IMG/VR virus record: IMGVR_UViG_3300028394_000272
Location: 1-26,983 of that record
Origin: a virus
Length of the DNA: 26,983 nt
Reading direction: 5' to 3' (one strand)
Every line of letters starts with the position of its first letter. Within the stretch, counting starts at the first letter, position 1. Positions 1,805-26,983 of this stretch are shown in pieces. Made by a program: the position numbers and the translations under genes. Below the pieces are notes generated by a model. The model ran no database searches. It saw only the letters and a list, made by a program, of their open reading frames with translations, and was not told the origin of the DNA.

Positions 1805-1821
1805 GTTGGCTATATAAACGC

Positions 1822-2712: not shown

Positions 2713-2720
2713 AATAAATA
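2713..2720 (+). promoter_or_regulatory. Candidate late promoter (AATAAATA)
   Basis: AATAAATA ends 23 bases before the ATG at 2744, and its last six bases match the T4 late consensus TATAAATA. The same TAAATA core recurs at similar distances before other genes in the window. The local sequence is A+T-rich, so on its own this site would be weak evidence. Confidence 0.3.
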
Positions 2721-2743
2721 AATCATACAAATTGGACACCACC

Positions 2744-5114: not shown

Positions 5115-5161
5115 GGAATATTTAATAAAATCCGCTGTGCGGTGTTAAATTTTAACAGGCT

Positions 5162-5169
5162 GCTAAATA
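5162..5169 (+). promoter_or_regulatory. Candidate late promoter (GCTAAATA) in the divergent intergenic region
   Basis: GCTAAATA contains the TAAATA core of the T4 late consensus. It lies 85 bases before the ATG at 5255, in the 140-base gap between divergent genes (5115-5254), the longest gap in the window. It would give a leader of about 80 nt. That leader could form two small hairpins: GGTGT/ACACC (5186-5190 with 5201-5205) and GCGG/CCGC (5214-5217 with 5225-5228). A 7-bp palindrome, TGTTAAA-T-TTTAACA (5143-5157), lies just upstream and could be an operator or chance A+T symmetry. Confidence 0.35.
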
Positions 5170-5241
5170 CTTGTCAACACAATACGGTGTTTTATGCAGG
5201 ACACCACTGCGTAGCGGCTAGAACCCGCATTGGGCTTCTAT

Positions 5242-5247
5242 AAGGAG
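5242..5247 (+). promoter_or_regulatory. Shine-Dalgarno of the gene at 5255
   Basis: AAGGAG lies 7 bases before the ATG at 5255, comparable in strength to the capsid gene site. It suggests a well-translated virion component. Confidence 0.75.
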
Positions 5248-5254
5248 AAATCAA

Positions 5255-6073: not shown

Positions 6074-6090
6074 TTTGTTAGGTAGTGGAG

Positions 6091-6121
6091 TCCTCCCAGC
6101 TACATACTGGGAGGATTTTTT
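6091..6121 (+). terminator. Intrinsic terminator fused to the next gene's ribosome binding site
   Basis: A perfect 9-bp stem, TCCTCCCAG (6091-6099) with CTGGGAGGA (6107-6115), has the 7-base loop CTACATA and is followed by six T (6116-6121). The ATG of the next gene starts at 6122. The 3' arm GGGAGG (6109-6114) is also the only ribosome binding site for that gene, and the T run is its spacer. Transcripts that read through would have this site buried in the stem. Confidence 0.93.
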
Positions 6122-6712: not shown

Positions 6713-9700
6713 ATGTCTACTTTCAAGCGTGTGCTCGGTAATCTTACCATACAAACCGTTACAGCATCTGATGCAATCACTTTGCAAGGTGGTACAGTAG
6801 TTGTAAGTGGAAACCTCACGGTATCTGGAAATGCTACCATAACTGGTAATCTTTCGGCCACAGCACTGACTAACGGTACTACAAATCTTGGGATTCCTCT
6901 AGCCAGTGGCAACGCTAATATCACCGTGGGCGGTACCAGTAATGTAGCTGTGTTTACTTCAACTGGTGCCAATATCACCGGTACTGCTAATATTAGTGGA
7001 GCAGTTACCACAGCTAGTACTATTAGTGCAACAGGCAACCTAACCAGCGGTAATATTTCAACTGCTGGATTAATAACGGTCACCGGTAACGTGCAGGGCG
7101 GTAATCTACGAACTGCCGGCCAGGTAAGTGCCACAGGTAATATCACTGGCGGTAACGTGTTAGGCGGCGCCAATGTCAACGCAACCACACACACAGGTAC
7201 CACTGTAAGTGTAAGTGCAAACGTAACAGGCGGAAACATATTGACAGCTGGACTGATATCGGCCGGCAGCACAATATCAGCAACAGGCAACATCCAAGGT
7301 GGTAATCTACGTACCGCAGGCACAATTTCAGCAACCGGTAACATCACCGGTGCTAATCTAGCGGTCGGAACAACCACTCCAGATTGTGAAGTGACCATAT
7401 TGGCCACTCCTCAGAGCGTGGTCTACTCAATCACAGGCAACAGCACCACAGCAGGAACTGATTTACATATTTCGGGCGCGGATGGTGCTAATACTAGAAT
7501 AACACAAGATGCATTTGGATCAGGATCGTATAGTGCATTCACTGGAAGAACTGCTGGCGGAACTGGAACTGCTCCTACTGGAACACAACCTGGAGACACA
7601 TTAGCCCAATTCACAGCACGTGGATTCAGCAGTGGTACATTACAATTTGGTAATGTATCAACCGGCAGATTGGACATCACAGCCGCCGAAGCATTCTCAG
7701 ATACCAGCAGAGCTACCAACGTACAGATATTCACCACAGCCGTTGGCGCAATAACTCCTACATCGGTTGCTGTTTTTTCCAGTGCAGCTGGACTGAGTGT
7801 AGTAGGCAACGTAGCAGGTGGTAATTTACTTTCTACTGGGTTGATAAACGCAGTAGGCAATATCACTGGCGGCTATCTAATAGCAAACTCAGACGTACAA
7901 GCAGGAAATTTACGAACAACCGGAACAATTAGTGCAACCGGTAACATCACAGCAGGTAACGTGCTAGGTGGTGCCAATGTCAATGCAACTACTTTGACTG
8001 GTACTACGGTCAGTGTGTCAAGCAACATCACCGGTGGAAATATACTATTTGGTGCAGGTAATGTCAGCGGCATTGGTAATATACTAGGTGGACTAATAAG
8101 TGTGTCGGGCAACATCACTGGCGCCAACATTATTGGTGCTATCATTGCCGGAGCAAATCCTATTACCACAACTGGTAATATCAGCGGCGGCAATTTGCTG
8201 ACCGGTGGATTGGTTTCAGCAACCGGCAATGTCACCGGCGGAAACGTATTAACAGGAGGCTTGATTTCAGCAACCGGCAACATCACAGGTGGTAACGTAT
8301 TAGGTGGTGCCAACGTCAACGCAACCACACACACAGGAACCACTGTTAGTGTTAGTGCAAACGTAACAGGCGGAAACATATTGACTGCTGGTCAAGTAAG
8401 TGCTACAGGTAACATCACAGGCGGTAATGTGTTAGGTGGTGCTAATGTGAATGCCACAACTCACACAGGTACCACGGTCTCAGTAACTGGCAACATCACA
8501 GGTGGTAATGTAATATTTGGTAGTGGCAATATCACCGGCACAGGAAATGTCATTGCAGGAAATGTATTAGGCGGTGCTAATGTTAACTCTACTTTGTTTA
8601 CTGGTACTACAGTTAGTGTAAGTGCAAACGTAACAGGTGGCAATGTATTAACAGGTGGCCTAATCAGCGCAACTGGCAACATCACCGGTGGCAACCTAAC
8701 TGGTACCAGCATTGTGGGTACACTGACCACAGCAGCACAAACCAATATAACTTCAGTGGGCACGTTGACCAGTTTAGCAGTAACCGGTAACACCACAAGT
8801 GGTAATTTATTAACAGGTGGATTAATATCTGCAACTGGCAACATCACCGGTGGTAACCTAACTGGTACCAGCATTGTAGGCACATTAACCACAGCAGCAC
8901 AAAACAATATAACCTCAGTAGGTACACTGACTAGTCTGAGTGTAAGCGGCAACATCACTGGTGGTAACGTCATAGGCACCATTGCTGCCGGCGCAAACAC
9001 AATCACCACAACTGGCAACATCACCGGTGGCAACGTGTTAGGCGGAGCCAATGTGAATGCAACCAGTTTAACCGGTACCACAGTATCGGTCAGTGCAAAT
9101 ATTATTGGTGGTAACATATTAACCGGTGGTGCGATTTCAGCAACCGGTAATATCACAGCAGCCAATGTGCTAGGTGGTGCCAATGTCAACGCAACCACAC
9201 ATACAGGTACCACAGTTTCGGTCAGTGCCAACGTCACAGGTGGTAATTTATTAACAGGTGGATTGATCTCGTCTACTGGTAATATTACCGGTGGTAACCT
9301 AACTGGTACTAGCATTGTGGGTACGCTGACCACTGCGGCACAAACCAATATTACCTCAGTTGGTACACTAACTAGTTTGGCAGTAACAGGCAACATCTCG
9401 GGTGGCAACGTGCTAGGTGGTGCCAATGTCAACGCAACCACGCACACAGGTACCACTGTCAGTGTAACTGGCAACATCACCGGTGGCAACGTGCTAGGTG
9501 GTGCCAATGTCAACGCAACCACACATACAGGAGCCACGGTATCAGTAACCGGTACCATCACAGGTGGTAATGTATTGACAGGTGGCCTGATCAGTGCCAC
9601 TGGTAATGTAACCGGTGGTAATATTATCACTACCGCAGCGGTTAGTGCTGCATCAGTAAGTGCATCAGGAAATGTAACAGGTGGTAATGTCAACACAGGC

Positions 9701-12700
9701 GGATTGATCACAGCGATCGGCAACATCATTGGCGGCAATTTACAAACCGCTGGAAATTTGATTGCCGATGGAAATGTGATTGCTGGTGCTGCAATGAGTT
9801 TTGCTCCACTGACTGCTCCAGTTCAAGCTGCTGCTACCGCTAATAGCTATGTACAATTAATAGTACAGAATAAATCAAGTGGTCTGGCCGCAACAACAGA
9901 TATTGTAGCAGTGGCAGATAATGGTAATGATACCGATGGTTTTGTTAGTATGGGTATCAATAGCTCGACCTACAATCAACCAGGCTATGCACTGACCACC
10001 GCCAATGATGGGTATTTGTATGTGACCGGCAATGTCACAACAGGTGGCGGCAATCTAGTGCTCAGCACTTACACTGCCAAGGACATTGTGTTTAGTACCA
10101 ATGGTAGTGATACTGCCAACGAAATTGGAAGATTCAAGCATGCTTTTGGACTTAGCGTAACCGGTAATGTATCAGCGACCGGCAATGTTACAGGTGGTAA
10201 CTTGAGCATATCTGGTAATATAGCAGCCAACAATGTTCTTGCTACTACAATAGTTAATGCTGCCAGCTACACAGGTGGATTGGTCAGTGTTACCGGCAAT
10301 GTCACCAGCGGAAACTTGTTAACCGGCGGATTGATCTCAGCCACAGGTAATATCACTGGTGGTAACATATCAACTGCTGCATTGACTGCAACTGGTACTA
10401 CGACCATGTCGGGCACCGTGAGCATGACCAGTTCGGCATTCACCCGCACAGCCACAACTCAAAACTGGACAGATGGCTCAATGACCACGGGGACTTGGAC
10501 AGTTGGAGGAACTGCACAAACAGGTTTTCTAGCTCTGGGCAGATCTACTGCCACACAAATATTGTACCTTGCCAATGGTGCCACTTCCACTGGCAACACA
10601 AAAACCATCAGTATTGGTGAAAACGGAGTTGCCAATTCCGTCACCAACATCAGTATTGGAACTGCCGCCGGCAATGGTAATGTCACATTCTCTGCCAATA
10701 CTTTGGTATCAATCGCCAACACATCTGGCACAGCACTCAGCGTGGCCGGTAACATCACTGGCGGTAATATATTATTTGGATCTGGTGTTATTAGTGGAAC
10801 TGGTAACATCTATGGTGGTAACATAATTGGTACATTGACTCCTACCACATTGAGTGCCAGTGGTAACGTCACTGCCGGCAATTTACTAACAGGTGGGCTA
10901 ATTTCGGCAACTGCCAACGTCATAGCCGGTAATTTATTAACAGGTGGACTGATCAGTGCAACAGGTAATATCACTGGCGGCAATATAAGCACCACAAGAT
11001 ACACAGGTACTTCGATCAGCGTGTCTGGCAACATCGATAGTGGTAATTTGCGCACCATAGGTCAGATCAGTTCTACCGGTAATGTCAATGTTCAAGCTGG
11101 AGCGTTTTTTGTGGGCGACGGAGGATTCCTCAGTAACGTGACTGCGGCTGCTAACGTATCGGTAACCACAATCGCCAATGGTACCACGTCGATGTCTATT
11201 CAATCATCGGGCGCTAACATAATAGTAGTAGTAGGAAATGTAGCACTTGGAAACATAAATCCATCAGGTTATGCCATAAACGGATATGTCAGTGCTAGTG
11301 GTAATGTAACAGGTGGTAATGTAATCACACCGGTAGTCACTGGTTCTACAATGACTATCAGCACCACTACTGCCAATGCCAATATTGTATTGACTCCAAA
11401 TGGAATTGGTAATGTCACAACTGGCGCTAATGTAAGCGTTACCGGTAACATCACAGGTGGTAACCTAAGCGTGACCGGTATTGCTGGTACCTTGTCTACC
11501 GCTGCACAAGGTAGTATCACTTCGGTAGGTACATTAACTAGTTTAGCAGTCACTGGTAACATCACCAGTGGCAATCTAAGTGGCACTAGCATTGTGGGTA
11601 CATTGACCACTGCTGCACAAACTAATATTACAAGCGTAGGTACATTAACCAGTTTAGCAGTCACTGGCAACATTAGTGGCGGCAACCTTTCGGGTACCAG
11701 CATCGTGGGCACATTGACCACTGCCAGTCAGACCAATATCACCTCAGTTGGTACTTTAGGTAGCTTGACAGTCACGGGCAATATCTCGGGTGGCAACATA
11801 TTGGGTGGAGCCAACGTCAACGCTACCACTCACACAGGTACCACAGTGAGTGTGACCAGCACTGTGACTGGATCGCAATTCAATGGATCTGGCGCTGGAT
11901 TGACCAGCATACCTGGCGCTAATGTAACAGGTACATTAAGTATTCCTACTTCAAGTTATGCTGCCACAGTAAGTGGTGCTGCCCAAGCCAATATTACCAG
12001 TGTGGGTACATTGACCAGTTTGGCAGTGACCGGCAACATTACTGCTGGCAATCTGTCAGGTACTAGTATCGTGGGTACGCTGACCACTGCGTCACAGACC
12101 AACATTACCAGTGTGGGCACATTGGGCAGTTTAGCGGTAACCGGCAATATCTCAGGTGGTAATGTGTTAGGTGGTGCCAATGTGAATGCTACCACTCACA
12201 CAGGTACCACTGTGAGTGTGACCAGCACAGTCACAGGAAGCCAATTCAATGGATCCGGTGCTGGACTCACTAGTATCCCAGGTGCCAATGTAACAGGCAC
12301 ATTGAGTATTCCTACTTCGAGTTATGCTGCCACAGTAAGTGGTGCAGCACAGGGCAATATCACCTCAGTGGGCACATTGACCAGCTTGAATGTAACTGGC
12401 AACATCACTGGTGGTAATTTATTGACAGGTGGGTCAATATCATCAACCGGTACCGTGAGTGCAGCAGGAACAGTATTAACAGGAAACATTAGTGCTGCCG
12501 GGTATCAAGGTGGTTCCAGTGGGCTCAGTATCACAGGTAACATCATTGGCGGCAATCTTTCTGGCACCAGCATTGTGGGCACATTGACCACTGCTGCACA
12601 GACCAACATTACCAGTGTAGGCACACTAACTGGCTTGACAATCAACAATGCAACCATAGCAATCACCAATGGTGCCACAACTGGTACTGGTAATATTGGT

Positions 12701-13126
12701 TCGTCTACCGTTGCATTTAACACGGTGTTTGCTAAAGCAACATCGGCACAATATGCTGACTTGGCCGAGATGTATGTAAGTGATGCTGAGTACGAACCTG
12801 GCACCGTGATGGAGTTTGGCGGCGCACATGAAATAACCATCAGCAATACCCAAAATAGTGACCGTGTAGCCGGCGTGGTTAGTACCAATCCAGCTCACAT
12901 AATGAATTCGTCACAGCAGGGCGAGCATGTGGTAGCAGTGGCCTTGACCGGAAGAGTACCCACCCGAGTCACTGGTTCTGTGTGGAAAGGTGCCATGATG
13001 ATTTCCGCTGGAAACGGGCATGCGCAAGCCTGTGCATCACCCACAATTGGTACCGTGATCGGCAAATCCTTGGAAGATTACCAAGGCGAGTCGGGCGTGA
13101 TCCAAGTGGTAGTGGGTAGACTATAA
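6713..13126 (+). CDS. Giant repeat fibre/adhesin protein (2137 aa) with C-terminal chaperone-like domain
   Basis: A 2137-residue tail-fibre-like virion protein. Most of it is Gly/Asn/Thr repeats (SATGNITGGNVLTGGLI strings, 11 copies of a GGANVN(A/S)T..TG(T/A)TVSV unit, 8 full copies of a GTL(T/S)TA(A/S)Q...ITSVGTL unit), expected to form an extended trimeric beta fibre. Globular modules seen in other phage fibres interrupt it. Residues about 243-365 carry LHISGADGANTRIT, GRTAGGTGTAP and TGRLDITAAEAF. Residues about 1023-1153 carry YVQLIVQNKSSG and DGFVSMGINSSTY. Residues about 1240-1343 carry ALGRSTATQILYLANGAT and TKTISIG. The last about 137 residues (FNTVFAKATSAQYADLAEMY, EYEPGTVMEFGG, VAGVVSTNPAHIMN, GKSLEDYQGESGVIQVVVG) recall C-terminal chaperone/Peptidase_G2-type domains. 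Start set by AAGGAA (6701-6706) and the exact late promoter. Residues about 1668-1902 contain a 122-residue tandem duplication. Receptor binding is inferred. Confidence 0.88.
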   Translation: MSTFKRVLGNLTIQTVTASDAITLQGGTVVVSGNLTVSGNATITGNLSATALTNGTTNLGIPLASGNANITVGGTSNVAVFTSTGANITGTANISGAVTTASTISATGNLTSGNISTAGLITVTGNVQGGNLRTAGQVSATGNITGGNVLGGANVNATTHTGTTVSVSANVTGGNILTAGLISAGSTISATGNIQGGNLRTAGTISATGNITGANLAVGTTTPDCEVTILATPQSVVYSITGNSTTAGTDLHISGADGANTRITQDAFGSGSYSAFTGRTAGGTGTAPTGTQPGDTLAQFTARGFSSGTLQFGNVSTGRLDITAAEAFSDTSRATNVQIFTTAVGAITPTSVAVFSSAAGLSVVGNVAGGNLLSTGLINAVGNITGGYLIANSDVQAGNLRTTGTISATGNITAGNVLGGANVNATTLTGTTVSVSSNITGGNILFGAGNVSGIGNILGGLISVSGNITGANIIGAIIAGANPITTTGNISGGNLLTGGLVSATGNVTGGNVLTGGLISATGNITGGNVLGGANVNATTHTGTTVSVSANVTGGNILTAGQVSATGNITGGNVLGGANVNATTHTGTTVSVTGNITGGNVIFGSGNITGTGNVIAGNVLGGANVNSTLFTGTTVSVSANVTGGNVLTGGLISATGNITGGNLTGTSIVGTLTTAAQTNITSVGTLTSLAVTGNTTSGNLLTGGLISATGNITGGNLTGTSIVGTLTTAAQNNITSVGTLTSLSVSGNITGGNVIGTIAAGANTITTTGNITGGNVLGGANVNATSLTGTTVSVSANIIGGNILTGGAISATGNITAANVLGGANVNATTHTGTTVSVSANVTGGNLLTGGLISSTGNITGGNLTGTSIVGTLTTAAQTNITSVGTLTSLAVTGNISGGNVLGGANVNATTHTGTTVSVTGNITGGNVLGGANVNATTHTGATVSVTGTITGGNVLTGGLISATGNVTGGNIITTAAVSAASVSASGNVTGGNVNTGGLITAIGNIIGGNLQTAGNLIADGNVIAGAAMSFAPLTAPVQAAATANSYVQLIVQNKSSGLAATTDIVAVADNGNDTDGFVSMGINSSTYNQPGYALTTANDGYLYVTGNVTTGGGNLVLSTYTAKDIVFSTNGSDTANEIGRFKHAFGLSVTGNVSATGNVTGGNLSISGNIAANNVLATTIVNAASYTGGLVSVTGNVTSGNLLTGGLISATGNITGGNISTAALTATGTTTMSGTVSMTSSAFTRTATTQNWTDGSMTTGTWTVGGTAQTGFLALGRSTATQILYLANGATSTGNTKTISIGENGVANSVTNISIGTAAGNGNVTFSANTLVSIANTSGTALSVAGNITGGNILFGSGVISGTGNIYGGNIIGTLTPTTLSASGNVTAGNLLTGGLISATANVIAGNLLTGGLISATGNITGGNISTTRYTGTSISVSGNIDSGNLRTIGQISSTGNVNVQAGAFFVGDGGFLSNVTAAANVSVTTIANGTTSMSIQSSGANIIVVVGNVALGNINPSGYAINGYVSASGNVTGGNVITPVVTGSTMTISTTTANANIVLTPNGIGNVTTGANVSVTGNITGGNLSVTGIAGTLSTAAQGSITSVGTLTSLAVTGNITSGNLSGTSIVGTLTTAAQTNITSVGTLTSLAVTGNISGGNLSGTSIVGTLTTASQTNITSVGTLGSLTVTGNISGGNILGGANVNATTHTGTTVSVTSTVTGSQFNGSGAGLTSIPGANVTGTLSIPTSSYAATVSGAAQANITSVGTLTSLAVTGNITAGNLSGTSIVGTLTTASQTNITSVGTLGSLAVTGNISGGNVLGGANVNATTHTGTTVSVTSTVTGSQFNGSGAGLTSIPGANVTGTLSIPTSSYAATVSGAAQGNITSVGTLTSLNVTGNITGGNLLTGGSISSTGTVSAAGTVLTGNISAAGYQGGSSGLSITGNIIGGNLSGTSIVGTLTTAAQTNITSVGTLTGLTINNATIAITNGATTGTGNIGSSTVAFNTVFAKATSAQYADLAEMYVSDAEYEPGTVMEFGGAHEITISNTQNSDRVAGVVSTNPAHIMNSSQQGEHVVAVALTGRVPTRVTGSVWKGAMMISAGNGHAQACASPTIGTVIGKSLEDYQGESGVIQVVVGRL
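7142..12390 (+). repeat. Interspersed fibre-module repeats in the giant gene
   Basis: Two dominant modules recur in mixed order. One encodes GGANVNATTHTGTTVSV, for example from about 7163, 8302, 9178, 9418, 9496, 11802 and 12172. The other encodes TAAQTNITSVGTLTSLAV, for example from about 8729, 9331, 11607 and 12594. Linker strings encoding SATGNITGGN join them. The protein text is nearly constant, while the DNA varies at third positions between copies. Related modules appear in the genes at 18977 and 23505. Confidence 0.9.
11714..12420 (+). repeat. 366-bp tandem duplication (122 aa)
   Basis: The block starting at 11714 repeats from 12080 at an exact offset of 366 bases, and similarity persists to about 12420. 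Both copies encode LTTASQTNITSVGTLGSL, the GGANVN unit, SQFNGSGAGLTSIPGANV and SIPTSSYAATVSGAAQ in the same order. The SQFNGSGAGLTSIP element occurs only in these two copies in the gene. Amino acids are almost identical, while synonymous differences are scattered along the DNA. Confidence 0.93.
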
Positions 13127-13148
13127 AATCATTCATGTAATTTTGGTT

Positions 13149-13181
13149 CTAGGGGTGTTGGTAAATATACTACACCCCTAG
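13149..13181 (+). promoter_or_regulatory. Perfect 10-bp inverted repeat enclosing a candidate late promoter
   Basis: CTAGGGGTGT (13149-13158) pairs exactly with ACACCCCTAG (13172-13181) around a 13-base loop. The loop contains GGTAAATA (13160-13167), a late-promoter-like octamer ending 22 bases before the ATG at 13190. No T run follows, so it is not a standard intrinsic terminator. There is no Shine-Dalgarno in the 8 bases between the hairpin and the ATG; the only purine-rich stretch, AGGGG, lies in the left arm. The inverted repeat could be an operator over the promoter, or an RNA hairpin on read-through transcripts. Confidence 0.6.
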
Positions 13182-13189
13182 TAACTCTC

Positions 13190-16100
13190 ATGACACAACA
13201 GATCATCAACACCGGTAACACATCAAATGATGGTACCGGTGAGGCATTACGCAGTGCTTTTATATCAGTAAATGAAAATTTTACCGAATTATACGCTGCC
13301 GGCCCGGTAGGGACTAATGTTTCCATAGCAGGAAATGTTATCACGGTCCTGGGGCGAAACAACAATCTAGTACTCAAGGGCAATGGGGTTGGCAATGTAC
13401 AAGCCAACAGCTCGATTATTCCTTCTATAGATGCAGTCTACGACCTTGGCGCACCGGCTACACGATTTGACACGGTTTATTCTACATACTTTGTAGGCAA
13501 CGGGTCTTTACTCACAGGCATAACGGTCAGTGGCGGAACTGCTATTGTTAATGGCAACAGCAATGTAAGTGTATCAGCCAACAGCGTAGTTACGATAGGT
13601 GTTGCTGGCACCGGAAATGTGGTCACGTTTGGTGATACCAATACCACATTCAACACCAACATCTCAGCAGCGGGCAACATCACCGGCAGCTATTTTATTG
13701 GTAATGGCTCACAGCTGACCGGGATTATAGCAACCAATAGTTATGGCAACGCCAATGTTGCTGCTAATCTAGCTGCATTTGGTACCAATCCCATATCCAC
13801 CACAGGCAACATTGCTGGTAGCTATTTTATCGGTAATGGTGCATTGCTCACTGGTATTGCCAGTGGTAGTACTTCAAATATCGCCAATGGCACAAGTAAT
13901 GTCACGGTTGCGTCCAGCAGTAATATCACTATTGGTGTTGCAGGTTCTACGGTTGCAACATTTGCCAGTACCGGCGAATATGTAACAGGCCTAGTCAGCG
14001 CCACAGGTAATGTCAAGGGCAACTACCTACTGGGCAACGGTAGTCAGTTATCCAATGTGCTGACCGTAAGCCAGTATACCACTGGTAACATATCCAATGT
14101 TGTTCCTAATGTACACGGATTGCTGTTTGATACCACCACTGGATTTAGTGTCACTGACATGGGCAACGGCAATGCCCTGATCACACTGGGCAGTTCGTTC
14201 AAGACTTGGGAAGTTGCCGGCCAGACCAGTCTAGTTGCAGTAGGTGAAGATACCGTAAAATTTGTTGATGGTAACAACATTGTTATAACCACCAATGCGC
14301 TGTCTACTCCGCAGCAAATCAAATTTTCACTCAGCGACAATGTATCAGTCTCGGGCAATATCACTGGTGGCAATGTTCGCACAATCGGATCAGTATCAGC
14401 CACAGGTAATGTCTCCGGCAATTATTTTATTGGTAATGGCTCACAGCTGACCGGACTGCCAGCATCTTATGGCAATGCTAATGTGGCTGCTAATCTAGCT
14501 GTGTTTGGTACCAATCCAATATCCACTAGTGGTAACATCACTGGTGGTTACATACTGGGCAATGGATCACAGCTTACCGGTATCGCATCTAGTTACGGCA
14601 ATGCTAATGTTGTTGCTAACTTGGCAGCTCTGGGTACTAATCCGATATCTACCACAGGCAACATCTCGGGTAATTATTTTGTTGGTAACGGATCACAACT
14701 TACTGGAGTTATTGCATCCGGCGGTAGTGGCAATACCACAATATTAGGCACCCCTTCAGATAGCAGCCTAACAGGAAACACAGTGGCATATCAAGGATGG
14801 ACTGCCAATACATATGTGACCGATGGATTAGATGATCTCAACCAGGTGGCTCTCAACATAGCTGGTAATACATTTGTGGGCAACACCTATATCACCTCCA
14901 ATGTGTATGCTGGTCCTAGTCCACTAAGTGTATCATTGACTGGGCGTTATATTGGTAACCCCAACAGCTACCTATGGCAATTTGGAGACGGAACTGCAAA
15001 CGTAATCACAGCAAATGCCACACACACATTTAGTAACACATTAGGTGGAACCTATACGGTGACTTATACTGCCTATAACACCACCGGTACCAATGCTGGA
15101 AATGCTGCTGCTGGGGCCAAAGGATCAACCAGCACAGCAACTACCACAATAACATTGTATACCCCAACTCCTATTCCAGCATTCACTGCCAATAGGACTA
15201 GTTTGGATACTCCTAATGGTGTACAGATAACCAACTCCAGCCAGTACTCCGAAACTTACTCAATCAATTGGGGAGATGGTACTATCGTGATCCCGGCCAC
15301 CAACTGGACCACAGCCGCACATGTCTATACCAATGCCACAGCCAATACCGATGTGTTGTATGGTGTTAACCTAACTGGCAACAGCGCCAATGCAGGCGCC
15401 AGCCCAGTAAGCGTCACGTCGTCAAACACCAATGTCAAGGTATACTCATCGCAGGCCAGCAATGTGTTTGTCACTGCCAATGTGGCCAATGTGATCAATG
15501 GTGTGGGAACAATAAGTTTCAGGAATGATTCCACTGGTAATCCGGGTAATACAGCAAGTTTTGGAGCACAGCAGTTATACAATTTTAATTGGGGCGACGG
15601 AACCGTTAGCAATGTTAACATAGCAACAGGCATCGCCGGCAATCCAGCAGCAGCCAATGTCACACATGCTTTTGCACTGAGTGCAGCCAATCAATCCGGA
15701 AACAAATACGAACAATACACAGCCAACTTATATCTATACACTGGTTACAGCACCAGCCCATTCAAATCTAGCAACATCACCATCACGATTGAACCGCAGA
15801 CTCGTGCTAATTTTGTTGGTGCCACAGCCAATGTCACTACCGATGCGACTGCTAACGTGGGCAATGCTAGAGTGGGTTACTTGTACACGGACTACAATGG
15901 TGCCAACCGATCGACCTTTACGTTCCAAAACACCAGTGAAAACAGCAACATCGCCAATTGGGCCTGGGGAGATAGCACATTCAGCAATGGTGTGTCTAAC
16001 GTGGGAAATGTTGTACACACTTATACTACCACCGGAGCAAAAACCGTATCACTCACTGCTAACGGAACACCAAATGGCATTACCAGCACCGCACAGAGCA

Positions 16101-17782: not shown

Positions 17783-17783
17783 T

Positions 17784-18950
17784 ATGTCAGATGCACAAAA
17801 ATTAGATTATCTGTGGAAAAAAGTAGGTTATGGTGTAGCCAAAACTGCTGATTCCGCCAGCAAAGAAGCTTTCAACGAAAGCATTGCTAGTCCATTACTC
17901 TATCGTGGAGATTTGATTTGGACCCAAAGTGGAGATATTCCCAACACTCCTCCGGCTAACACCACTGCGTTGATCCAGGTGTACAAAGATGGCGGAGGTG
18001 CAGGATATAGTGCCACCGTGGAATGTACAGAAGATTTAACTGCTCCAGACAATCAAACCTGGTTAACTGGCCTGGCCAACTGGGTTCCTACCCAGTTTGG
18101 TGACAACTACTTGGTGCAAGTGTATGTGGCAGCATCTGGTGTGAGCAATCCACAGACCGTGGGCACAAAATTGTTTGCTGCTGGCTCGGGCAATGATGAC
18201 ACATGGTTCTTTGACTATCAAGCAGGCTTGTTGAACTTCAATGGTGCAAATATTCCAAGCCAGATTGCAACTGGGGTCACTGGCAAAAGTATCTACATTG
18301 TTGGCTACAGATATGTGGGTACCTACGGAGTAGATCCCACATACATCAGCGACGGTACATCAAATGTACAGGTAGTAAGCACTGACGGTAATGTTACTAT
18401 AAGTGTGGATGGAACCAGTAATGTCGCTGTATTTTCTACTGGCGGCGCACAAGTTACCGGAAATATCTCCGCTACAGGCAACGTGGCAGGAAATTATTTT
18501 GTAGGTAATGGTGCGGCGCTGACCGGCATTGTGACTAGTGCAAGCGGCAATGTTGTTGGAAACTTGACCGTGACTGGAACTGCTAGCGTAGCAGGAAATG
18601 TCACAAGTGGTACTAACTTTGTAGGCAATGGTGCTGCATTGCTCAGCACAATGACAGATCGTGGCAATGATCAGAATAACTGGAACACTCTAATACAGAT
18701 GGGTGTTTACACAGTCAACAGAACCAGCTGGTCGGGAACGGTAGGAACACCATTAGATAGTCAGGTATTTACAGGGCTGCTCGAAGTAAAAAACAGCACA
18801 GATACGTCAATTGAACAGATATTTTATCCAGGCACTGTGGAAAGTGGCGATATAAAAATACAATGGAATCGCGCAAACTGGAATGCAACTTGGACTGATT
18901 GGATTAGAATCGTAAATAACGACCAGATTGTTATAGGTGGAACATACTAA
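17784..18950 (+). CDS. Short fibre-type protein with pyocin-knob-like tip
   Basis: A 388-residue protein. Residues 1-195 (KLDYLWKKVGYGVAKT, NESIASPLLYRGDLIW, FGDNYLVQVYVAASGVSNPQ, FFDYQAGLLNFNG, IYIVGYRYVGTYG) are a conserved N-terminal domain of T4-like fibre proteins, probably for virion attachment. Residues about 195-290 contain a few NVAGNYFVGNGAALTGI-type repeats shared with the giant neighbours. Residues about 300-388 (NNWNTLIQMGVYTVNR, EQIFYPGT, QWNRANWNATWTDWIRI) resemble pyocin-knob/phage fibre tip domains with conserved Trp and Arg. The protein ends GGTY, as does the next gene. The ATG is one base after the previous stop, so translation is probably coupled; AGGA at 17767-17770 is a distant ribosome site. 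It is the smallest member of the cluster and a complete attachment-shaft-tip architecture. Confidence 0.86.
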   Translation: MSDAQKLDYLWKKVGYGVAKTADSASKEAFNESIASPLLYRGDLIWTQSGDIPNTPPANTTALIQVYKDGGGAGYSATVECTEDLTAPDNQTWLTGLANWVPTQFGDNYLVQVYVAASGVSNPQTVGTKLFAAGSGNDDTWFFDYQAGLLNFNGANIPSQIATGVTGKSIYIVGYRYVGTYGVDPTYISDGTSNVQVVSTDGNVTISVDGTSNVAVFSTGGAQVTGNISATGNVAGNYFVGNGAALTGIVTSASGNVVGNLTVTGTASVAGNVTSGTNFVGNGAALLSTMTDRGNDQNNWNTLIQMGVYTVNRTSWSGTVGTPLDSQVFTGLLEVKNSTDTSIEQIFYPGTVESGDIKIQWNRANWNATWTDWIRIVNNDQIVIGGTY

Positions 18951-18953
18951 ATA
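18946..18953 (+). promoter_or_regulatory. Candidate late promoter (ACTAAATA)
   Basis: ACTAAATA overlaps the stop codon of the preceding gene and ends 23 bases before the ATG at 18977, the same spacing as the site at 2713-2720. It shares the TAAATA core of the T4 late consensus. A second copy of the core, CGTAAATA, lies at 18911-18918 inside the preceding gene. Confidence 0.4.
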
Positions 18954-18962
18954 AGTCTGAAT

Positions 18963-18968
18963 AGGAAG
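18963..18968 (+). promoter_or_regulatory. Shine-Dalgarno of the gene at 18977
   Basis: AGGAAG, 8 bases before the ATG, fixes the start of the giant fibre gene at 18977. The paralogous gene at 23505 has only a weak AGG. Confidence 0.65.
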
Positions 18969-18976
18969 TTATTGAC

Positions 18977-21900: not shown

Positions 21901-23488
21901 ATCTACTGCCAGCATAGTATCAACAGGCAACATTGACGGTACCAATCTAAACGGTAGCGGGTTGAGTCTAAGTGGCAATGTCATCAGTGCATTGAATGTG
22001 ACTGGTGCCATAGCAGGCGCCAATGTTTCAACTCCAGGATTTGTCAGCGCCACAGGCAACATCACAGCTGGTAACGTCAATGGCGGCGCCAATGTCAATG
22101 CCACATTGTTGTCAGGTACCACAGTCAGTGTAACCGGCAATGTCACTGGTGGCAATGTCAATACCAATACCATAGTTGGTACTGCAACCACTATCCGATC
22201 AACAGGCGATCTGAATCTAAGTGCAACTGGCAACATTGTAGTTGGCACATACATCAATGGATTGACAAATCCTGTACAAGATCAGGATGCTGCTACCAAA
22301 TCTTATGTGGATTCAGTAGCACAAGGTCTTGACATCAAGGCATCAGTATCGTATGCCACTGCCGCAACACTAAATGCCTATACCTACAACAATGGCACAT
22401 CGGGAGTTGGTGCCACAATCACTGCCAACAGCAATGGCATATTGAGCATTGATGGATCAACACCGGTGAATGGCGAACGTGTTTTGGTCAAGAATGAAGC
22501 CGGGGCCAACGCACCGTACAACGGTATCTATGTGGTAACTGCTGTGGGAACTATCAGTACACCGTTTGTGCTAACTCGTGCCACCGATTTTAACCAACCT
22601 GCAGAAATACCCGGCGCGTTTACATTTGTTGAAGCCGGCTCTGTCAATGCTGATTCTGGATATGTATGTACTACCAATTCTCCAGTGACGGTTGGTACTA
22701 CTGATATTGTATTCACACAGTTCTCTGGTAGTGGTTCATACACAGCCAACACCTCAGCTGGTTTGGTATTGGTTGGTACACAATTCAATGCCAAAGTTGA
22801 TGATATAACAACTGCATTTGATGTCAGTGGCAATATTGTTGTCAAGGCCAGTGCTGCACTGACCACACCAAATATTGGTGCTGCAACTGGTACCAGTTTG
22901 AGTGTGACAGGCAATGTTACCAGTGGTAACATCAACACTGGCGCAATAAGTTTAACTGGTAATGTTATCACTGGGTTGAATGTCACAGGCTCAATTGCTG
23001 GTGGTAATGTCAACACACCCGGACTGATCAGCGCCACTGGCAACATCACTGGCGCTAATGTATTCACAGGCGGCGTGGTCAGTGCAACTGGCAACGTCAA
23101 CGGCGGTAATATAATTTCTGCTGCTGCTATTTCTGCAGTTTCGCTGAGCCTGAGTGGTAATATTACGTCAGCACTGAACGTGACTTCAAGCATCACTGCT
23201 GGTACCACAATCAGTGCTGTGGGCAACATAACTGGTGCCAATGTCAATACCACAAACATCAGTCTAACTGGCAATATTGTATCAGCAGTCAATGCCAGTT
23301 CAAGCATCACTGCTGGTACCACAATATCTGCCATTGGTAATATCACAGGTGGTAACATCACAACCGCAGGCCTGATATCAGCCACAGGCAATGTCGATGG
23401 CGGAAATATCAACGCCACAACTGGATCTTACGTCGCCGGCGTGTCTGTTTTAACCGTAAATGCAACTATTGATGGTGGTACCTACTAA
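18977..23488 (+). CDS. Giant repeat tail fibre protein with Mtd_N-like N-terminus (1503 aa)
   Basis: A 1503-residue fibre. Residues 1-55 (ILIKRSGTANSVPSALSLGE, LAINYADGNLFYKDG) resemble the major-tropism-determinant-type N-terminal attachment domain of phage fibres. The shaft is Gly/Asn/Thr modules, including GTRILATNFAGTTLSVSGN twice and a 38-residue SITAGTTISAVGNITGGNLN unit in tandem. A registration element, DLGSATQRWRDLYLSGSSLN, lies at about residues 394-413. At about 1093-1255 is a collar-type domain common in tail fibres: INGLTNPVQDQDAATKSYVD, then GERVLVKNEAG and NGIYVV, TRATDF, GYVCTT. Repeats resume after it. The end, ATIDGGTY, echoes the GGTY end of the preceding protein. The next gene is a close paralogue at the N-terminus and in the shaft. 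Start fixed by AGGAAG at 18963. Receptor-binding specificity cannot be inferred. Confidence 0.88.
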   Translation: MSAPNTNTILIKRSGTANSVPSALSLGELAINYADGNLFYKDGTSTIRVLASNQFVSVTGNVTAGNVNAVGLSLSGNVISPLNVTGNLTSGNILTPGLLSVTGNITGGNLISSSLTSTRIPYVGTSSQLTDSTNLTWSNSTQVMSIGAGGTEIGGNTGVGYVKAATVSATGNVIGGNITTAGLVTAVGNITTSNYFLGNGALLTGVITSVANINNGTSNVTVVSSGGNVTVGIAGTSNVAVFYSGGLNITGAISANGNITSGGTINTTSLSLSGNITSDLNVTPNIAGGNITTPGLISATGNITGGNVSGTRILATNFAGTTLSVSGNVTGGNILFGAGVVSGTGNIAGGNLTTGGQVSATGNITSGGTLSTVDLSVGGNVLTSLVPAANVTQDLGSATQRWRDLYLSGSSLNLGAQTISANATTVNIGTGNLAGANITTPGQVSAAGNITGANIATSGNISATGNLFAGNVLGGANVNATTFTGTTVSVTGNISGGNLSGTNIVGTLTTASQTNITSVGTLGSLSVSGNTTSGNLLTGGLISAGGDITAGGYVFGANANITGNLDAGNLSGTRILATNFAGTTLSVSGNITGGNISGGANINATSLTGTVVSVSGTITGGNVQTGGVVSATGNITGGNLTTTGNVTGGNVLFGTGNVSGTGNIAAGYFIGNGSQLTGVIATSASALVNGTTNITTAPSGNANVTIAGTSNVIVWTTTGEYVTGNVSASGNVTGGNLISGSLTSTRVPYVGAASQLTDSTNLTWDNPNQVLKIGAGGTEIGGDAGFGYLNTKTISASGNVTGGNVVTAGAVSAGSLSLSGNVTSALNATSSIAAGTTISAVGNITGGNLNAAGLSLTGNVVSNFRASASIEAGTTISAVGNITGGNLNAAGLSLSGNIVSAVSATSSITAGTTISATGNITGGNIITGAALSAGSVSSVGNVTGGNLITSAAISAGSVSASGNVNGGNITTLGVISTASIVSTGNIDGTNLNGSGLSLSGNVISALNVTGAIAGANVSTPGFVSATGNITAGNVNGGANVNATLLSGTTVSVTGNVTGGNVNTNTIVGTATTIRSTGDLNLSATGNIVVGTYINGLTNPVQDQDAATKSYVDSVAQGLDIKASVSYATAATLNAYTYNNGTSGVGATITANSNGILSIDGSTPVNGERVLVKNEAGANAPYNGIYVVTAVGTISTPFVLTRATDFNQPAEIPGAFTFVEAGSVNADSGYVCTTNSPVTVGTTDIVFTQFSGSGSYTANTSAGLVLVGTQFNAKVDDITTAFDVSGNIVVKASAALTTPNIGAATGTSLSVTGNVTSGNINTGAISLTGNVITGLNVTGSIAGGNVNTPGLISATGNITGANVFTGGVVSATGNVNGGNIISAAAISAVSLSLSGNITSALNVTSSITAGTTISAVGNITGANVNTTNISLTGNIVSAVNASSSITAGTTISAIGNITGGNITTAGLISATGNVDGGNINATTGSYVAGVSVLTVNATIDGGTY
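21482..21795 (+). repeat. 114-bp tandem repeats (38 aa)
   Basis: Units beginning ACCACAAT start at 21482, 21596 and 21710 at exact 114-base intervals; the third is partial. Each encodes TTISAVGNITGGNL followed by a LSLSGN element. The DNA copies differ at many third positions. Confidence 0.9.
23204..23400 (+). repeat. Second block of the 114-bp repeat
   Basis: The same 38-residue unit reappears near the 3' end of the gene, with starts at 23204 and 23318 (interval 114 bases). It is separated from the first block by the collar domain, so one module was used on both sides of a globular insertion. Confidence 0.85.
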
Positions 23489-23504
23489 TCATAAGTAGTA
23501 GGTA

Positions 23505-26500
23505 ATGACCAATACAGTACTAATCAAGCGCTCAAGTACGGCAAATTCAGTCCCTGTTGCGGGAAATCTTCAAACGGGCGAATTGGCCATCAACTATACT
23601 GACGGCAATTTATTCTACAAAGACAACAACAACGGCGTCCAGTTACTGACCAGCAACAAATTTGTCAGTGTAACTGGCAATATCACTGGGGCCAACCTAA
23701 ATGCCACTGGGCTAAGCCTGAGCGGTAATGTTGTATCCAATGTTAATGTAACTTCAAATATTGCCGGTGGCAATATCAAAACTCCCGGATTGATCAGTGC
23801 CGCGGGCAACATCACGGGCAATTATTTTATTGGTAATGGATCTCAGTTGACTGGCATTACAACATCCGCCGGCTCTGCTATCACAAATGGCACAAGTGAC
23901 GTTACTGTAAGTGCCAATAGCAATATCACAGCCAATGTGTCCGGGACCACGATAGCCACATTTGCTAGCACAGGCGAATATGTAACTGGTATAATCAGTG
24001 CCACGGGCAATGTCACAGGCAACTTCTTTATCGGTAATGGCTCGTTACTGACCGGAATTTCTTCATCAAGTTATGGCAATGCCAATGTTGCTGCCAACTT
24101 GGCTGTGTTCGGAACAAACCCAATATCTACTAGTGGTAACATCACAGGCAATTACTTCATTGGCGACGGATCACAGCTGACCGGAATTGTATCCAGCTAT
24201 GGCAATGCCAATGTTGCTGCCAACTTGGCAGCATTTGGAACAAACCCAATATCCACCACAGGCAACATCACAGGTGGTTACATACTGGGCAATGGATCAC
24301 AGCTGACCGGAATTGTATCCAGCTATGGCAATGCCAATGTTGCTGCCAACTTGGCTGTGTTCGGAACAAACCCAATATCTACTAGTGGCAACATCACAGC
24401 AGGCAACATCTTAGGCGGTTCAAACGTCAATGCAACCACACACACAGGTACCACGGTCTCAGTGACAGGTAATATCACGGGTGGCAATGTCAACGCCGCA
24501 GGATTGAGTTTAAGTGGCAATGTAGTAAGTGCATTGAATTTGACCGCCAACGTCACTACCACTGCCAACATTTCCGGCAGTTACATATTAGGCAACGGAA
24601 GCCAACTGACTGGTCTTCCGGTGACTTATGCTAATGCCAACGTGGCGGCTAACTTGGCAGCATTTGGAACCAACCCAATATCAACCGGCGGTAATATCAC
24701 TGGTGGTAATTTTTATGTGCCAACAACAAACACCGGCTTGATTGGTGGAGTCATAGGCTTAACATATGCTGGATATTTTAATGGTACCAATCAATACCTA
24801 ACCGTACCAAACGCTACCGTGTTGGCCGGCGCAGGTAATTTAACAATCGAATTTTGGGCATATCCGATGAATAGTTCAGGACGCTGTTTTATCGGTGGCA
24901 CTGACTGGGAATTATACATGAGTGGCTGGGAAGTACGATTTGTACAACAAAACTCATATGGATTTAACAGTGGATTAAATGTTACTCCGGACACATGGAA
25001 TCATGTGGTGTTATCTCGTGATTCGTTTGTATCTGGAACTTCTGGCAATTGGAGAATATTTGTAAATGGTGTGATGTATACCACGGCCAGCAATGGTGGA
25101 TCACCTCTGAGTTCACCGTCGTATCTGGGCATAGGTATAAGTGTAGATAATGGCGGCACAAGAAATCCATTTGAGGGTTATCTGTCTAATTTCCGCATTG
25201 TGAACGGGGTAGGAGTTTACACATCTGCATTTACTCCCAGCACCACACCGCTAACACCAAATCAATTGGCCAATGTAAATGGTTCTCCTAGCGCAGCACT
25301 CACTGCTGGACAAACAAAATTATTAACCTTACAAAATAGTACCATTATAGACAACTCGTCGCAGGCACTGACAATCACAAATTACAATACCGTGGTGACT
25401 TCAACATCATCGGTTCTTGTTACTAGTGCCCAAGGAACGTTGATATATGATGGTAGTACCTGGCAATCGACTTCTATAATGGTAACTGGTACATTGTCGG
25501 CCACAGGCAATGTAACCGGCAACTATTTTATTGGTAACGGCTCGCAACTCACAGGCATTGCAGCTAGTTATGGCAATGCCAATGTGGCAGCCAACTTGGC
25601 GGCATTTGGAACCAATCCTGTATCTACCACGGGTAATATCACTGCTGGCAACATCCTGGGCGGAGCCAACGTAAATGCTACCACTCACACAGGTACCACT
25701 GTTTCGGTAAGTGCTAATGTTACCGGCGGTAATATATTGACAGGTGGTATTGTATCAGCTACAGGTAATGTAACCGGCAACTTCTTCATTGGTAACGGCT
25801 CGCAACTGACTGGACTTGCTGCAACTTACGGCAACGCCAATGTGGCAGCCAACTTGGCAGCATTTGGAACAAATCCCATATCGACTAGTGGCAACATCAC
25901 AGCAGGTAATTTGCTAACCAACGGAGTGATCAGTGCTACTGGCAATATCACTGCTAACAACGCAATATTCACTGGCAATTTGAGTGTGGCAGGTAATGTA
26001 ACCTACATTAGCAGTAACGTGGTCACTATCAACGATGTGGCAATCAATTTAGGAAACAATGCCTCCAACATAACTCAAGTGAACAATGGTGGCATTGAGC
26101 TAGGTCCTCAAGGCAGCCCATATGTCACATTCCTTTACAACAGTTCAGCAAATACGTTTACGTCAAATGTTGGATTAAGTGCAGTAGCTAATATAACAGG
26201 TGGTAATGTATTGACAGGTGGTATTGTATCGGCTACTGGTAACATCACCGGCGGTAATATCTTGGGTGGTGCTAATGTGAATGCTACCACACATACAGGT
26301 ACCACTGTGAGTGTGAGTGCAAACGTAACTGGTGGTAATGTATTGACAGGTGGAATAGTAAGTGCAACCGGTAACATCACTGGTGGTAACCTAAGTGGTA
26401 CCAGCATAGTGGGCACATTGACCACAGCAGCACAAACCAATATCACCTCAGTAGGTACGCTGGGTAGTTTGGCAGTGACTGGCAATGCCACAGGTGGAAA

Positions 26501-26983
26501 TGTATTGACAGGTGGCATAGTGTCTGCAACCGGCAATGTTACAGGCAACTTCTTCATCGGCAATGGATCACAGCTGACTGGGCTTCCAGCAACTTACGGC
26601 AACGCAAATGTTGCGGCTAACTTGGCAGCATTTGGAACCAACCCAATATCTACTACAGGTAACATCACTGGCAATTACTTCATTGGTAACGGATCACAAC
26701 TGACCGGTATCGCTCCAAGCTATGGCAATGCTAATGTTGCTGCCAATTTAGCCGTGTTTGGTACCAACCCAATATCCACCAGTGGCAACATCACAGGTGG
26801 CAACATAATCACGCCTGCGGCAATATCAGCAGTTTCGGTCAGCGCCAGCGGCAACGTCACAGGTGGTAATGTCAATACCAACACCGTAGTTGGCACAGCT
26901 ACTACAATAAAATCAATTGGTGACCTGACTCTAAGCACAACCGGTAATATTGTAGTTGGCACCTACATCAATGGATTGTCAAC
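23505..26983 (+). CDS. Giant repeat tail fibre protein with LamG-like domain (3' partial, paralogue of the preceding gene)
   Basis: The frame starting at the ATG at 23505 is open to the window end (1159 full codons), so the gene continues beyond. Residues 1-55 (VLIKRSSTANSVP, GELAINYTDGNLFYKD) are a clear paralogue of the preceding gene's attachment domain. The shaft has 42-residue NGSQLTGI...YGNANVAANLA.FGTNPIS units. Residues about 423-577 form a LamG/concanavalin-like lectin module: GYFNGTNQYLTVP, LTIEFWAYPM, WNHVVLSRD, WRIFVNGVMYTTA, GYLSNFRIVNG. Residues about 839-873 carry VVTINDVAINLGNNAS and NGGIELGPQGSPY, a module of T4-like structural proteins. The visible end, GNIVVGTYINGLS, is the point where the paralogue enters its collar domain, so one is expected to follow. 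Only a weak ribosome site (AGG, 23500-23502) precedes the ATG, 16 bases after the previous stop. Confidence 0.88.
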   Translation, partial: MTNTVLIKRSSTANSVPVAGNLQTGELAINYTDGNLFYKDNNNGVQLLTSNKFVSVTGNITGANLNATGLSLSGNVVSNVNVTSNIAGGNIKTPGLISAAGNITGNYFIGNGSQLTGITTSAGSAITNGTSDVTVSANSNITANVSGTTIATFASTGEYVTGIISATGNVTGNFFIGNGSLLTGISSSSYGNANVAANLAVFGTNPISTSGNITGNYFIGDGSQLTGIVSSYGNANVAANLAAFGTNPISTTGNITGGYILGNGSQLTGIVSSYGNANVAANLAVFGTNPISTSGNITAGNILGGSNVNATTHTGTTVSVTGNITGGNVNAAGLSLSGNVVSALNLTANVTTTANISGSYILGNGSQLTGLPVTYANANVAANLAAFGTNPISTGGNITGGNFYVPTTNTGLIGGVIGLTYAGYFNGTNQYLTVPNATVLAGAGNLTIEFWAYPMNSSGRCFIGGTDWELYMSGWEVRFVQQNSYGFNSGLNVTPDTWNHVVLSRDSFVSGTSGNWRIFVNGVMYTTASNGGSPLSSPSYLGIGISVDNGGTRNPFEGYLSNFRIVNGVGVYTSAFTPSTTPLTPNQLANVNGSPSAALTAGQTKLLTLQNSTIIDNSSQALTITNYNTVVTSTSSVLVTSAQGTLIYDGSTWQSTSIMVTGTLSATGNVTGNYFIGNGSQLTGIAASYGNANVAANLAAFGTNPVSTTGNITAGNILGGANVNATTHTGTTVSVSANVTGGNILTGGIVSATGNVTGNFFIGNGSQLTGLAATYGNANVAANLAAFGTNPISTSGNITAGNLLTNGVISATGNITANNAIFTGNLSVAGNVTYISSNVVTINDVAINLGNNASNITQVNNGGIELGPQGSPYVTFLYNSSANTFTSNVGLSAVANITGGNVLTGGIVSATGNITGGNILGGANVNATTHTGTTVSVSANVTGGNVLTGGIVSATGNITGGNLSGTSIVGTLTTAAQTNITSVGTLGSLAVTGNATGGNVLTGGIVSATGNVTGNFFIGNGSQLTGLPATYGNANVAANLAAFGTNPISTTGNITGNYFIGNGSQLTGIAPSYGNANVAANLAVFGTNPISTSGNITGGNIITPAAISAVSVSASGNVTGGNVNTNTVVGTATTIKSIGDLTLSTTGNIVVGTYINGLS
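24072..24449 (+). repeat. 126-bp tandem repeats (42 aa), mosaic
   Basis: TATGGCAATGCCAATG starts at 24072, 24198 and 24324, exactly 126 bases apart. Each unit encodes YGNANVAANLA, FGTNPIS and, in the first two, GNGSQLTGI or GDGSQLTGI. Copies 1 and 3 share the variant GCTGTGTTCGGAAC and end ATATCTACTAGTGG, whereas copy 2 has GCAGCATTTGGAAC and ATATCCACCACAGG. Further copies of the unit lie near 25568, 25826, 26592 and 26718, and in the gene at 13190 (near 13742, 14468, 14594). Confidence 0.92.

Follow-up and report, generated by a model that had tools for sequence, protein, structure and literature searches.

The sequence analyzed here, referred to as the window, is the 26,983-base virus record IMGVR_UViG_3300028394_000272 of IMG/VR. 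Much of it is occupied by a row of large fibre-like genes, F1 to F5 (Table 1). This report is concerned with these genes and, above all, with the boundary between F2 and F3, where the C-terminal joint domain of F2 (F2C) is followed by the N-terminal joint domain of F3 (F3N). The source is a T4-like phage and probably a jumbo phage. It was assigned to the T4-like group because of the Gp23-type capsid gene at the left of the window. The capsid proteins of the best 30 isolate records, which include PA5oct, MIJ3, Phosso, GAP32, and CBB, showed approximately 61 to 66% identity, and the record of a relative with a 90% identical capsid protein (G025) comprises 346,856 bases.

A first-pass annotation, made from the sequence alone, had described five fibre-like open reading frames (ORFs) in a row, and both their order and their sizes were confirmed; the gaps between them measure 63, 1, 26, and 16 bases. 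It had also confined the block to 20 kb of the window, which proved too short. The longer record IMGVR_UViG_3300010160_000074 (47,708 bases) matches window positions 1398 to 26983 with 2 mismatches over 25.6 kb and continues past the window edge. There, F5 reaches its full size of 1543 amino acids (aa) and is followed by a sixth gene of 2095 aa. Measured from g6122 to the sheath-like gene, the block has six genes in 28.2 kb. To the right of the sixth gene lie reverse-strand tail-sheath-like and virion-structural-like genes, a flank also described as tail-sheath and sheath-stabiliser-like, with genes for a head-tail adaptor and a tail sheath farther right. Long repeats can be misassembled and the sources are metagenomes, but an assembly artefact is extremely improbable: the second record agrees with the window, though perhaps as a related sample, the fibre ORFs of the window are uninterrupted, and other arrays recur in distinct records.

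Table 1. Features of the window discussed in the text
Feature	Position	Strand	Basis or remark
Gp23 major capsid protein, left anchor of the locus	554..1750	+	Pfam Gp23, 1.3e-96
g6122, conserved gene directly left of the fibre block	6122..6712	+	phrog_30607, 1e-31; phrog_4603, 1e-4; orthologues in relatives
TATAAATA, resembling a T4-type late promoter, 25 nt upstream of F1	6688..6695	+	sole perfect plus-strand copy in the window
F1, repeat fibre protein, 2137 aa	6713..13126	+	ORF
F1C, C-terminal domain of F1	12638..13123	+	common to PA5oct gp359 and Campylobacter phages
Hairpin with 10-bp stem and TAAATA in the loop, F1-F2 gap	13149..13181	+	sequence
F2, 1530 aa, repeats chiefly in the N-terminal third	13190..17782	+	ORF
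PKD domain in F2, residues 580-637, better of two stretches	14927..15100	+	Pfam PKD_4, 9e-11
F2C, C-terminal joint domain of F2	16235..17779	+	phrog_8578; beta-rich model, mean pLDDT (predicted local distance difference test) 75.6
F3, 388 aa	17784..18950	+	ORF; no promoter-like site upstream
F3N, N-terminal joint domain of F3	17784..18332	+	phrog_9417; model mean pLDDT 71.4
F4, repeat fibre protein, 1503 aa	18977..23488	+	ORF
F4 globular ("collar") module	22226..22822	+	similar to tail-fibre proteins annotated in marine T4-like phages
F5, repeat fibre protein, at least 1159 aa, cut by the window end	23505..26983	+	ORF
LamG/ConA-like domain in F5	24717..25379	+	Laminin_G_3, 7.2e-18; 65.6 against a gathering score of 27.6 bits

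Recurrence and coupled divergence of F2C and F3N

The F2C-F3N junction was present in all 58 loci of a first set. In a wider, overlapping set that takes in the isolates phiCbK, CcrSC, Bajun, Phosso, Atu_ph07, and SCTP-2, F2C formed the C terminus of a protein and the next gene began with F3N at 95/95 distinct F2C ends, and F3N starts were preceded by an F2C end in 96/96 cases; 6 F2C and 2 F3N were set aside from these counts as too near contig ends. The spacing between the two genes ranged from 1 to 18 nt. In the phage collection, 52 records contained F3N and 50 contained F2C; most of them belong to phiCbK-type phages of Caulobacter and Brevundimonas. Phosso and SCTP-2 appeared in both lists and Atu_ph07 in that of F3N, its F2C-type regions being seen on direct protein comparison. 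Adjacent homologues of F2C and F3N are encoded by phiCbK gp73 and gp74 (33% identity each). When relatives were searched for, phiCbK gp73 as the query retrieved 6 loci and Phosso as the query none, and a single pattern-based scan across genomes of bacteria and archaea returned no relative of F2C.

Across 104 distinct junctions (5356 pairs), the divergence of F2C was closely correlated with that of F3N (r = 0.92), despite their location in separate proteins. By comparison, F3N correlated with the rest of F3 at an r of 0.35 (0.28 to 0.36 for parts of that rest), and F2N with F2C at 0.30 to 0.34. Restricting the analysis to pairs homologous on both sides gave 0.95 for F2C-F3N, 0.41 to 0.48 for F3N and the rest of F3, and 0.41 for F2N-F2C. 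Identity breaks, defined as at least 75% identity on one side and less than 60% on the other, pointed in the same direction. Inside F3 they occurred in 619 of 3741 pairs and inside F2 in 305 of 3403, whereas a single pair of 5356, a borderline one (59/76), showed a break between F2C and F3N. For the 24 loci with a capsid gene, r was 0.93 for F2C-F3N and 0.43 for F2C-capsid, and the partial correlation of F2C and F3N given the capsid was 0.91.

Clear double replacements of F2C together with F3N were observed in 7 pairs, which fall into two groups. One of them, G003 against G025, was mapped in DNA: the left side is 85% identical in DNA over 3.1 kb (G003 4002-7060) and the right side 82 to 88% over most of 5.9 kb (9683-15593), with both flanks of the replaced segment together at 82 to 92%. 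Between these flanks lies an unrelated segment, 2.6 kb in one record against 3.9 kb in the other, that spans the C-terminal half of F2 and F3N. The G003 version of this segment is 76% like that of G006. Elsewhere, G025 has approximately 2.3 kb extra beside the capsid gene, and its last fibre genes are more diverged from those of G003. The G003-type F3 protein is found at 97 to 100% identity in 6 other records and is therefore not the product of one faulty assembly.

TAAATA corresponds to the core sequence of late promoters of the T4 type. Within the window it occurs within 30 nt upstream of F1, F2, and F4, and upstream of neither F3 nor F5. Among relatives, it was located 24 to 30 nt before 35/35 distinct F2-type starts, with 0.55 expected by shuffling, and at -23 in 7/7 distinct F1-type upstream regions. 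Because the F2-F3 spacing is short and F3 lacks such a site, the sequence indicates that the two genes are probably cotranscribed. The motif was placed in a hairpin with a stem of at least 6 in 21/35 F2-type upstream regions (4.5 expected), and although the stem sequence differs between phages, the pairing is often kept. When all TAAATA sites in gaps were considered, 18/99 had a stem of at least 7, compared with 18/179 for control hexamers; the excess of hairpins is clear only upstream of F2-type genes.

The same gene arrangement, with short F2-F3 spacing and no promoter-like site before F3, would also be compatible with F3N assisting F2C as an assembly chaperone, in the manner of tail-fibre assembly proteins encoded after their fibre, rather than serving as a structural link, and a fibre and its cognate chaperone have been described to travel together in other phages (PMC10579305). 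We nonetheless consider a chaperone unlikely. F3N is the beginning of proteins that run on for 343 to 3009 aa in relatives and for 232 aa in phiCbK gp74. In Bajun, Phosso, and Atu_ph07, moreover, a middle protein starts with F3N and ends with F2C, giving chains of three, and proteins that carry both domains fit a chain better than a free chaperone.

Mosaic structure over long times and general stability over short times

Multigene fibre blocks recur in the relatives examined; the capsid search alone covered at least 80 loci. Ten records, two of which (G027 and G028) have identical blocks, are closed on both sides by the same flanking genes. Their blocks measure 12.2 to 28.2 kb and contain 2 to 8 genes, counting genes of at least 120 aa, some of them small and non-fibre. 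The nearest relative, G027, illustrates the extent of change. Its 12 compared flanking proteins are 70 to 99% identical, and 14.6 kb on the right is collinear at 83% DNA identity, but its block spans 12.2 kb and consists of two genes, of 1322 and 2591 aa. The first 450 aa and the last 190 aa of F1 are retained at 80 to 92% and 76 to 90%, respectively, and the start of F2 at 52 to 74%. The rest of F2 and F3 to F6 have scattered repeat matches only and no collinear counterpart.

Capsid identity was rejected as a yardstick for such comparisons. The best-matching capsid record shows 98% protein identity against 85% DNA identity, and at four-fold sites the capsid genes of the closest records are approximately 60% identical, compared with roughly 27 to 40% for the glycosyltransferase gene and g6122. 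Gp23 is thus unusually conserved, and the flanking genes of both sides were therefore taken as the yardstick.

On the shortest time scale, 10 near-identical pairs of distinct records were compared: the window with G022, G027/G028, L188/L189, L138/L141, L138/L140, L145/L157, L134/L179, and G029 with each of L198, L200, and L197. Some of these records may derive from related samples. Gene set and module order were the same in 10/10 pairs, and in nine of them the fibre stretch (7.6 to 20.3 kb; 12.2 kb for the block of G027/G028) had 0 to 4 mismatches and no gap. In the tenth pair, G029/L197, the genes are 99.5 to 100% identical and L197 has lost 201 nt (67 codons) in frame from the repeat stretch of one gene (gene 4, near G029 15918; 1358 aa against 1291 aa), possibly by slippage or assembly collapse. 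Larger changes were seen from about 5 to 9% flank divergence onward, where the gene set was kept and indels or a replaced N-terminal stretch appeared (L133 versus L135 and L166). On the evolutionary scale the locus is therefore a mosaic, whereas on short time scales it is for the most part stable. As a side observation, L188 and L189 differ by 60 mismatches in the 5.4 kb left of the block and by 1 in 11 kb of block; of the 63 differences counted, 61 are confined to the first 1.5 kb of L189, which is a contig end located in the capsid region, a pattern that could reflect recombination or assembly mixing.

The relationship among repeat units was evaluated with four families typed as consensus strings, leaving units with less than 60 to 70% identity to the consensus uncounted. 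The nearest neighbour of a unit in DNA sequence belonged to the same gene in more cases than expected (11 versus 4.1, 26 versus 6.7, 16 versus 7.9, and 77 versus 12.8), whereas neighbours in other genes of the same genome were at about the expected number (2 versus 2.6, 2 versus 3.2, 10 versus 9.5, and 18 versus 12.2). Concerted evolution across the five genes was consequently rejected, the enrichment being mainly within genes. Repeats are homogenised within genes and hardly between them. The five genes therefore appear unlike one actively shared library, which argues against a single set of modules shuffled among them.

These results bear on the possibility that the locus diversifies rapidly, with slippage or gene conversion among repeats continually making new adhesins. 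Tandem repeats, exact repeats of up to 65 nt within genes, the excess of same-gene neighbours, and the in-frame loss in L197 would all be consistent with it. Set against this are the nine gap-free pairs, even if some may be related samples, between-gene neighbours at or near expectation, repeats whose silent sites are about half diverged, and assembly collapse as a possible explanation for L197. We regard rapid diversification as highly unlikely. The first-pass annotation had proposed an expanded, recombining adhesin locus, in which close relatives should differ in module order and inserts. As nine of the ten pairs were gap-free with at most 4 mismatches, the contrary pattern, which the annotation had named as grounds for refutation, holds on the near-identical scale; an expanded, mosaic locus of receptor-binding type over long times is supported, and ongoing diversification receives little support.

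Within the block, F1, F4, and F5 consist mostly of Gly/Asn/Thr/Ser-rich repeats. The block contains 12 of the 19 tandem-array rows of the window, and exact 20-mers are common to F1, F4, and F5 mutually and to F2 and F5; the 6.7 kb left of the block has none in common with any fibre gene. The earlier view that all five genes use the same repeats is overstated for F2 and F3. Among the four counted families, F3 has no copy and F2 has three, all of one family, and 88% of F3 and 55% of F2 consist of stretches of at least 60 aa that are free of repeat motifs. In F2, the repeats of the first third are followed by the PKD domain and a long conserved C-terminal region. Nor does each gene have its own N-terminal domain, as F4 and F5 have a common one (42/61 identical).

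Regarding the globular inserts, PKD and LamG domains were verified, the latter on the F5 segment by itself because the whole-protein Pfam scan missed it; the "collar" segment of F4 has no Pfam family, and the "knob" was not located. The F4 module is approximately 37 to 51% identical to proteins annotated as tail fibres in Melnitz, Pelagibacter, and Synechococcus phages. A related module is found in F5, outside the window, and globular modules reappear in different genes. For F1C, the sole Pfam family listed, Peptidase_G2, remained below its gathering score (18.3 versus 25 bits), and a PDB profile search gave a weak match only (0.016). A match of F3 to NCBIfam PRK08651 (25 versus 369 bits) and sub-cutoff Pfam matches such as Chlorovi_GP_rpt were judged spurious. 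The C-terminal ends of F4 (...TIDGGTY, 23465-23485), F3 (...VIGGTY, 18930-18947), and phiCbK gp74 (...TIDGGTF) are alike in sequence and possibly represent a common motif.

Several observations concern the surroundings of the row. The sixth gene (L234:651-6935, minus strand) is repetitive, has a LamG-like stretch with 30% identity to F5 and no PHROG match, and by eye resembles a beta-helix adhesin. A gene with TPR and Glyco_transf_9 domains (3966-5114, minus strand), present in 11 of the compared records, adjoins the fibre region, and g6122 was found in at least 14. The Glyco_transf_9 score is barely above the cutoff (22.5 versus 22), the resemblance of g6122 to a sialyltransferase is weak, and both genes are located beside the fibre row, not inside it; they might decorate the fibres or the host surface. 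In several relatives, the far side of the block is closed by a 221-aa gene (L245:4299-4961, plus strand) with weak similarity to PHROG 30607, that of g6122 (4e-4; blastp, 0.002). The slot between the capsid gene and the TPR-glycosyltransferase gene (1751-3965) is a second variable site and holds fibre-like genes in G005 and G008 (G008 3348-7127). In the window, the ORF at 2633-3976 includes short tandem repeats coding for an Ala/Pro/Glu/Lys-rich stretch (3281-3470), and its part from 2741 to 3976 had no Pfam or PHROG family match.

A proposed fibre cassette and its alternatives

We propose that the locus is a host-recognition fibre cassette of a T4-like phage with a coupled F2C-F3N joint, and we consider this explanation probable. 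With the capsid region on one side and the tail-sheath region on the other, the genes would be expressed late from several promoters, and their products, proteins of the F1 to F6 type, would be extracellular, host-binding fibres of the virion. Repeat stretches may serve as stalks, with the PKD, LamG, "collar," and C-terminal domains as spacers, binders, and folding aids. F2 and F3 would form one unit in which F2C fits and binds F3N, so that the two proteins are joined in a single fibre; where a middle protein with F3N first and F2C last is present, as in some isolated phages, a chain of three would result. Recombination would replace F2C and F3N together, possibly because the two halves must match, through crossovers that fall inside the genes and not at their boundary; the anchor end of F2 and the distal part of F3 would be retained or changed independently. 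A role in the virion is supported by the presence of F1C in PA5oct gp359, a virion protein marked in its record as detected by electrospray ionization tandem mass spectrometry (ESI-MS/MS) and adjoining a protein annotated as a long tail fibre, and by the match of the F4 module to annotated tail fibres.

It should be noted that several results count against this proposal. The pairs counted do not represent independent events, and searches with F2C or the capsid supplied most of the loci. The middle of F2 is about as tightly coupled to F2C within one protein (r = 0.91), and tight coupling is thus not specific to the junction; the exchanged unit therefore probably extends, on sequence grounds, from the middle of F2 to F3N. 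The nearest relatives, G027 and G028, are without the F2C-F3N pair, which is therefore not essential to the lineage, and the pair was not found in G029 or in G001, the record of which is cut off. TAAATA preceded F3 in 0/55 cases, near the chance value of 0.60, so that the case for cotranscription depends on the short spacing as well. Single-chain models of F2C and F3N had no confident counterpart in the PDB, with no Foldseek match at an E value of 0.001 or less and no VIA-align match at a Z score of at least 8, and no fold is proposed for them. Among the VIA-align rows for F3N, CBA120 TSP4 appeared with a Z score of only 3.0, and in a PDB profile search F3N gave a weak match (0.073) and F2C none. 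Finally, the eight phiCbK virion proteins detected by mass spectrometry, as listed in PMC3556154, do not include gp73, gp74, or gp76.

The phiCbK pair also raises the question of where such a fibre is attached. In that phage, the major head protein is encoded 1.8 kb upstream of gp73-gp74, and gp75 and gp76 follow the pair immediately. Gill et al. named gp76, a 2799-aa protein with a lectin domain and tandem duplications, as the most probable head-filament protein (PMC3556154). The window locus is likewise downstream of the capsid gene, and since phiCbK is a siphophage, an F2C-F3N pair can be carried without a T4 baseplate. The F2-F3 unit, perhaps with F4 to F6, could accordingly be a capsid filament, an antenna like the phiCbK head filament, instead of a long tail fibre. 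Opposed to this are the modules in common with annotated tail fibres, the location of the F1C-containing PA5oct protein beside tail-fibre and baseplate genes, and the tail and connector genes on the right flank. In addition, gp75 had no match in the compared ORFs and gp76 two weak ones, none in the window or G022. The head-filament protein of phiCbK was itself not conclusively established by Gill et al. in 2012 (PMC3556154), and the absence of gp73, gp74, and gp76 from the detected virion proteins applies here as well. We therefore view a capsid filament as rather unlikely. A broader version, in which F2C/F3N is a general fibre coupler of T4-like jumbo and phiCbK-like phages that builds a capsid-borne filament from separately encoded proteins in a chain and is itself, in place of the gene, the unit of exchange, appears to us slightly more doubtful still.

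The proposed cassette can be placed beside a well-known fibre. The T4 long tail fibre, gp34 to gp37, is built from several proteins joined end to end, and its tip genes, gp37/gp38, are exchanged by recombination. Here, the joint and not the tip is the coupled unit, and Pfam, PHROG, and NCBIfam searches found no T4 fibre family, although their sensitivity is too low to decide. The data suggest that what is exchanged is a pair of domains, one on either side of a gene boundary, that stay with their partner while the remainder of both proteins changes. If the joint reflects binding, it shows how multiprotein fibres can re-assort without breaking assembly.

The organisation as a single locus, highlighted in the first-pass annotation, is not unique. 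Variable fibre islands of T4-like phages, tandem fibres of a jumbo phage, and variable fibres of marine phages are already known. The host recognition cluster (HRC) of pelagimyophages and cyanomyophages is a hypervariable, nonsyntenic tail-fibre island with glycosyltransferase genes in the T4-like structural region (PMC7029224). The window resembles it as described there in having a variable fibre block inside the conserved structural genes of a gp23-capsid, T4-type phage. It differs in that the row consists almost purely of giant fibre genes, belongs to another lineage, and contains the recurrent F2C-F3N pair. The HRC is located between VrlC and gp14; the flanks identified here are the capsid side and the tail-sheath side. 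Tandem fibre genes are likewise found in the jumbo Klebsiella phage RaK2, where nine fibre proteins encoded by the consecutive genes gp526 to gp534 are proposed to join via common N-terminal domains (PMC10253068). Depolymerase beta-helices and CBA120-type head domains are features reported for RaK2, and none were identified here by sequence searches, including those of Pfam, PHROG, and NCBIfam for CBA120/T4 gp10-like branching domains. In marine phages, metaviromic islands, in which tail-fibre and lectin genes vary among relatives, were defined by read recruitment (PMC3909814), whereas the variation described here was read from compared records.

No paper on the coupled F2C/F3N pair, or on its sharing between T4-like and phiCbK-like phages, was among the top matches listed in a search of mainly open-access literature, which is weak evidence of absence. 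A close counterpart is phiCbK gp73-gp74 (PHROGs 8578 and 9417), adjacent F2C/F3N genes downstream of a capsid gene, there followed by a giant lectin-domain protein (PMC3556154). Unlike the phage of the window, phiCbK is a prolate siphophage, and no window gene is clearly homologous to its gp75 or gp76. The presence of the same pair in phiCbK provides genes that can be tested in relation to its head filament and, should the coupler indeed build a capsid filament, would give a genetic handle on it.

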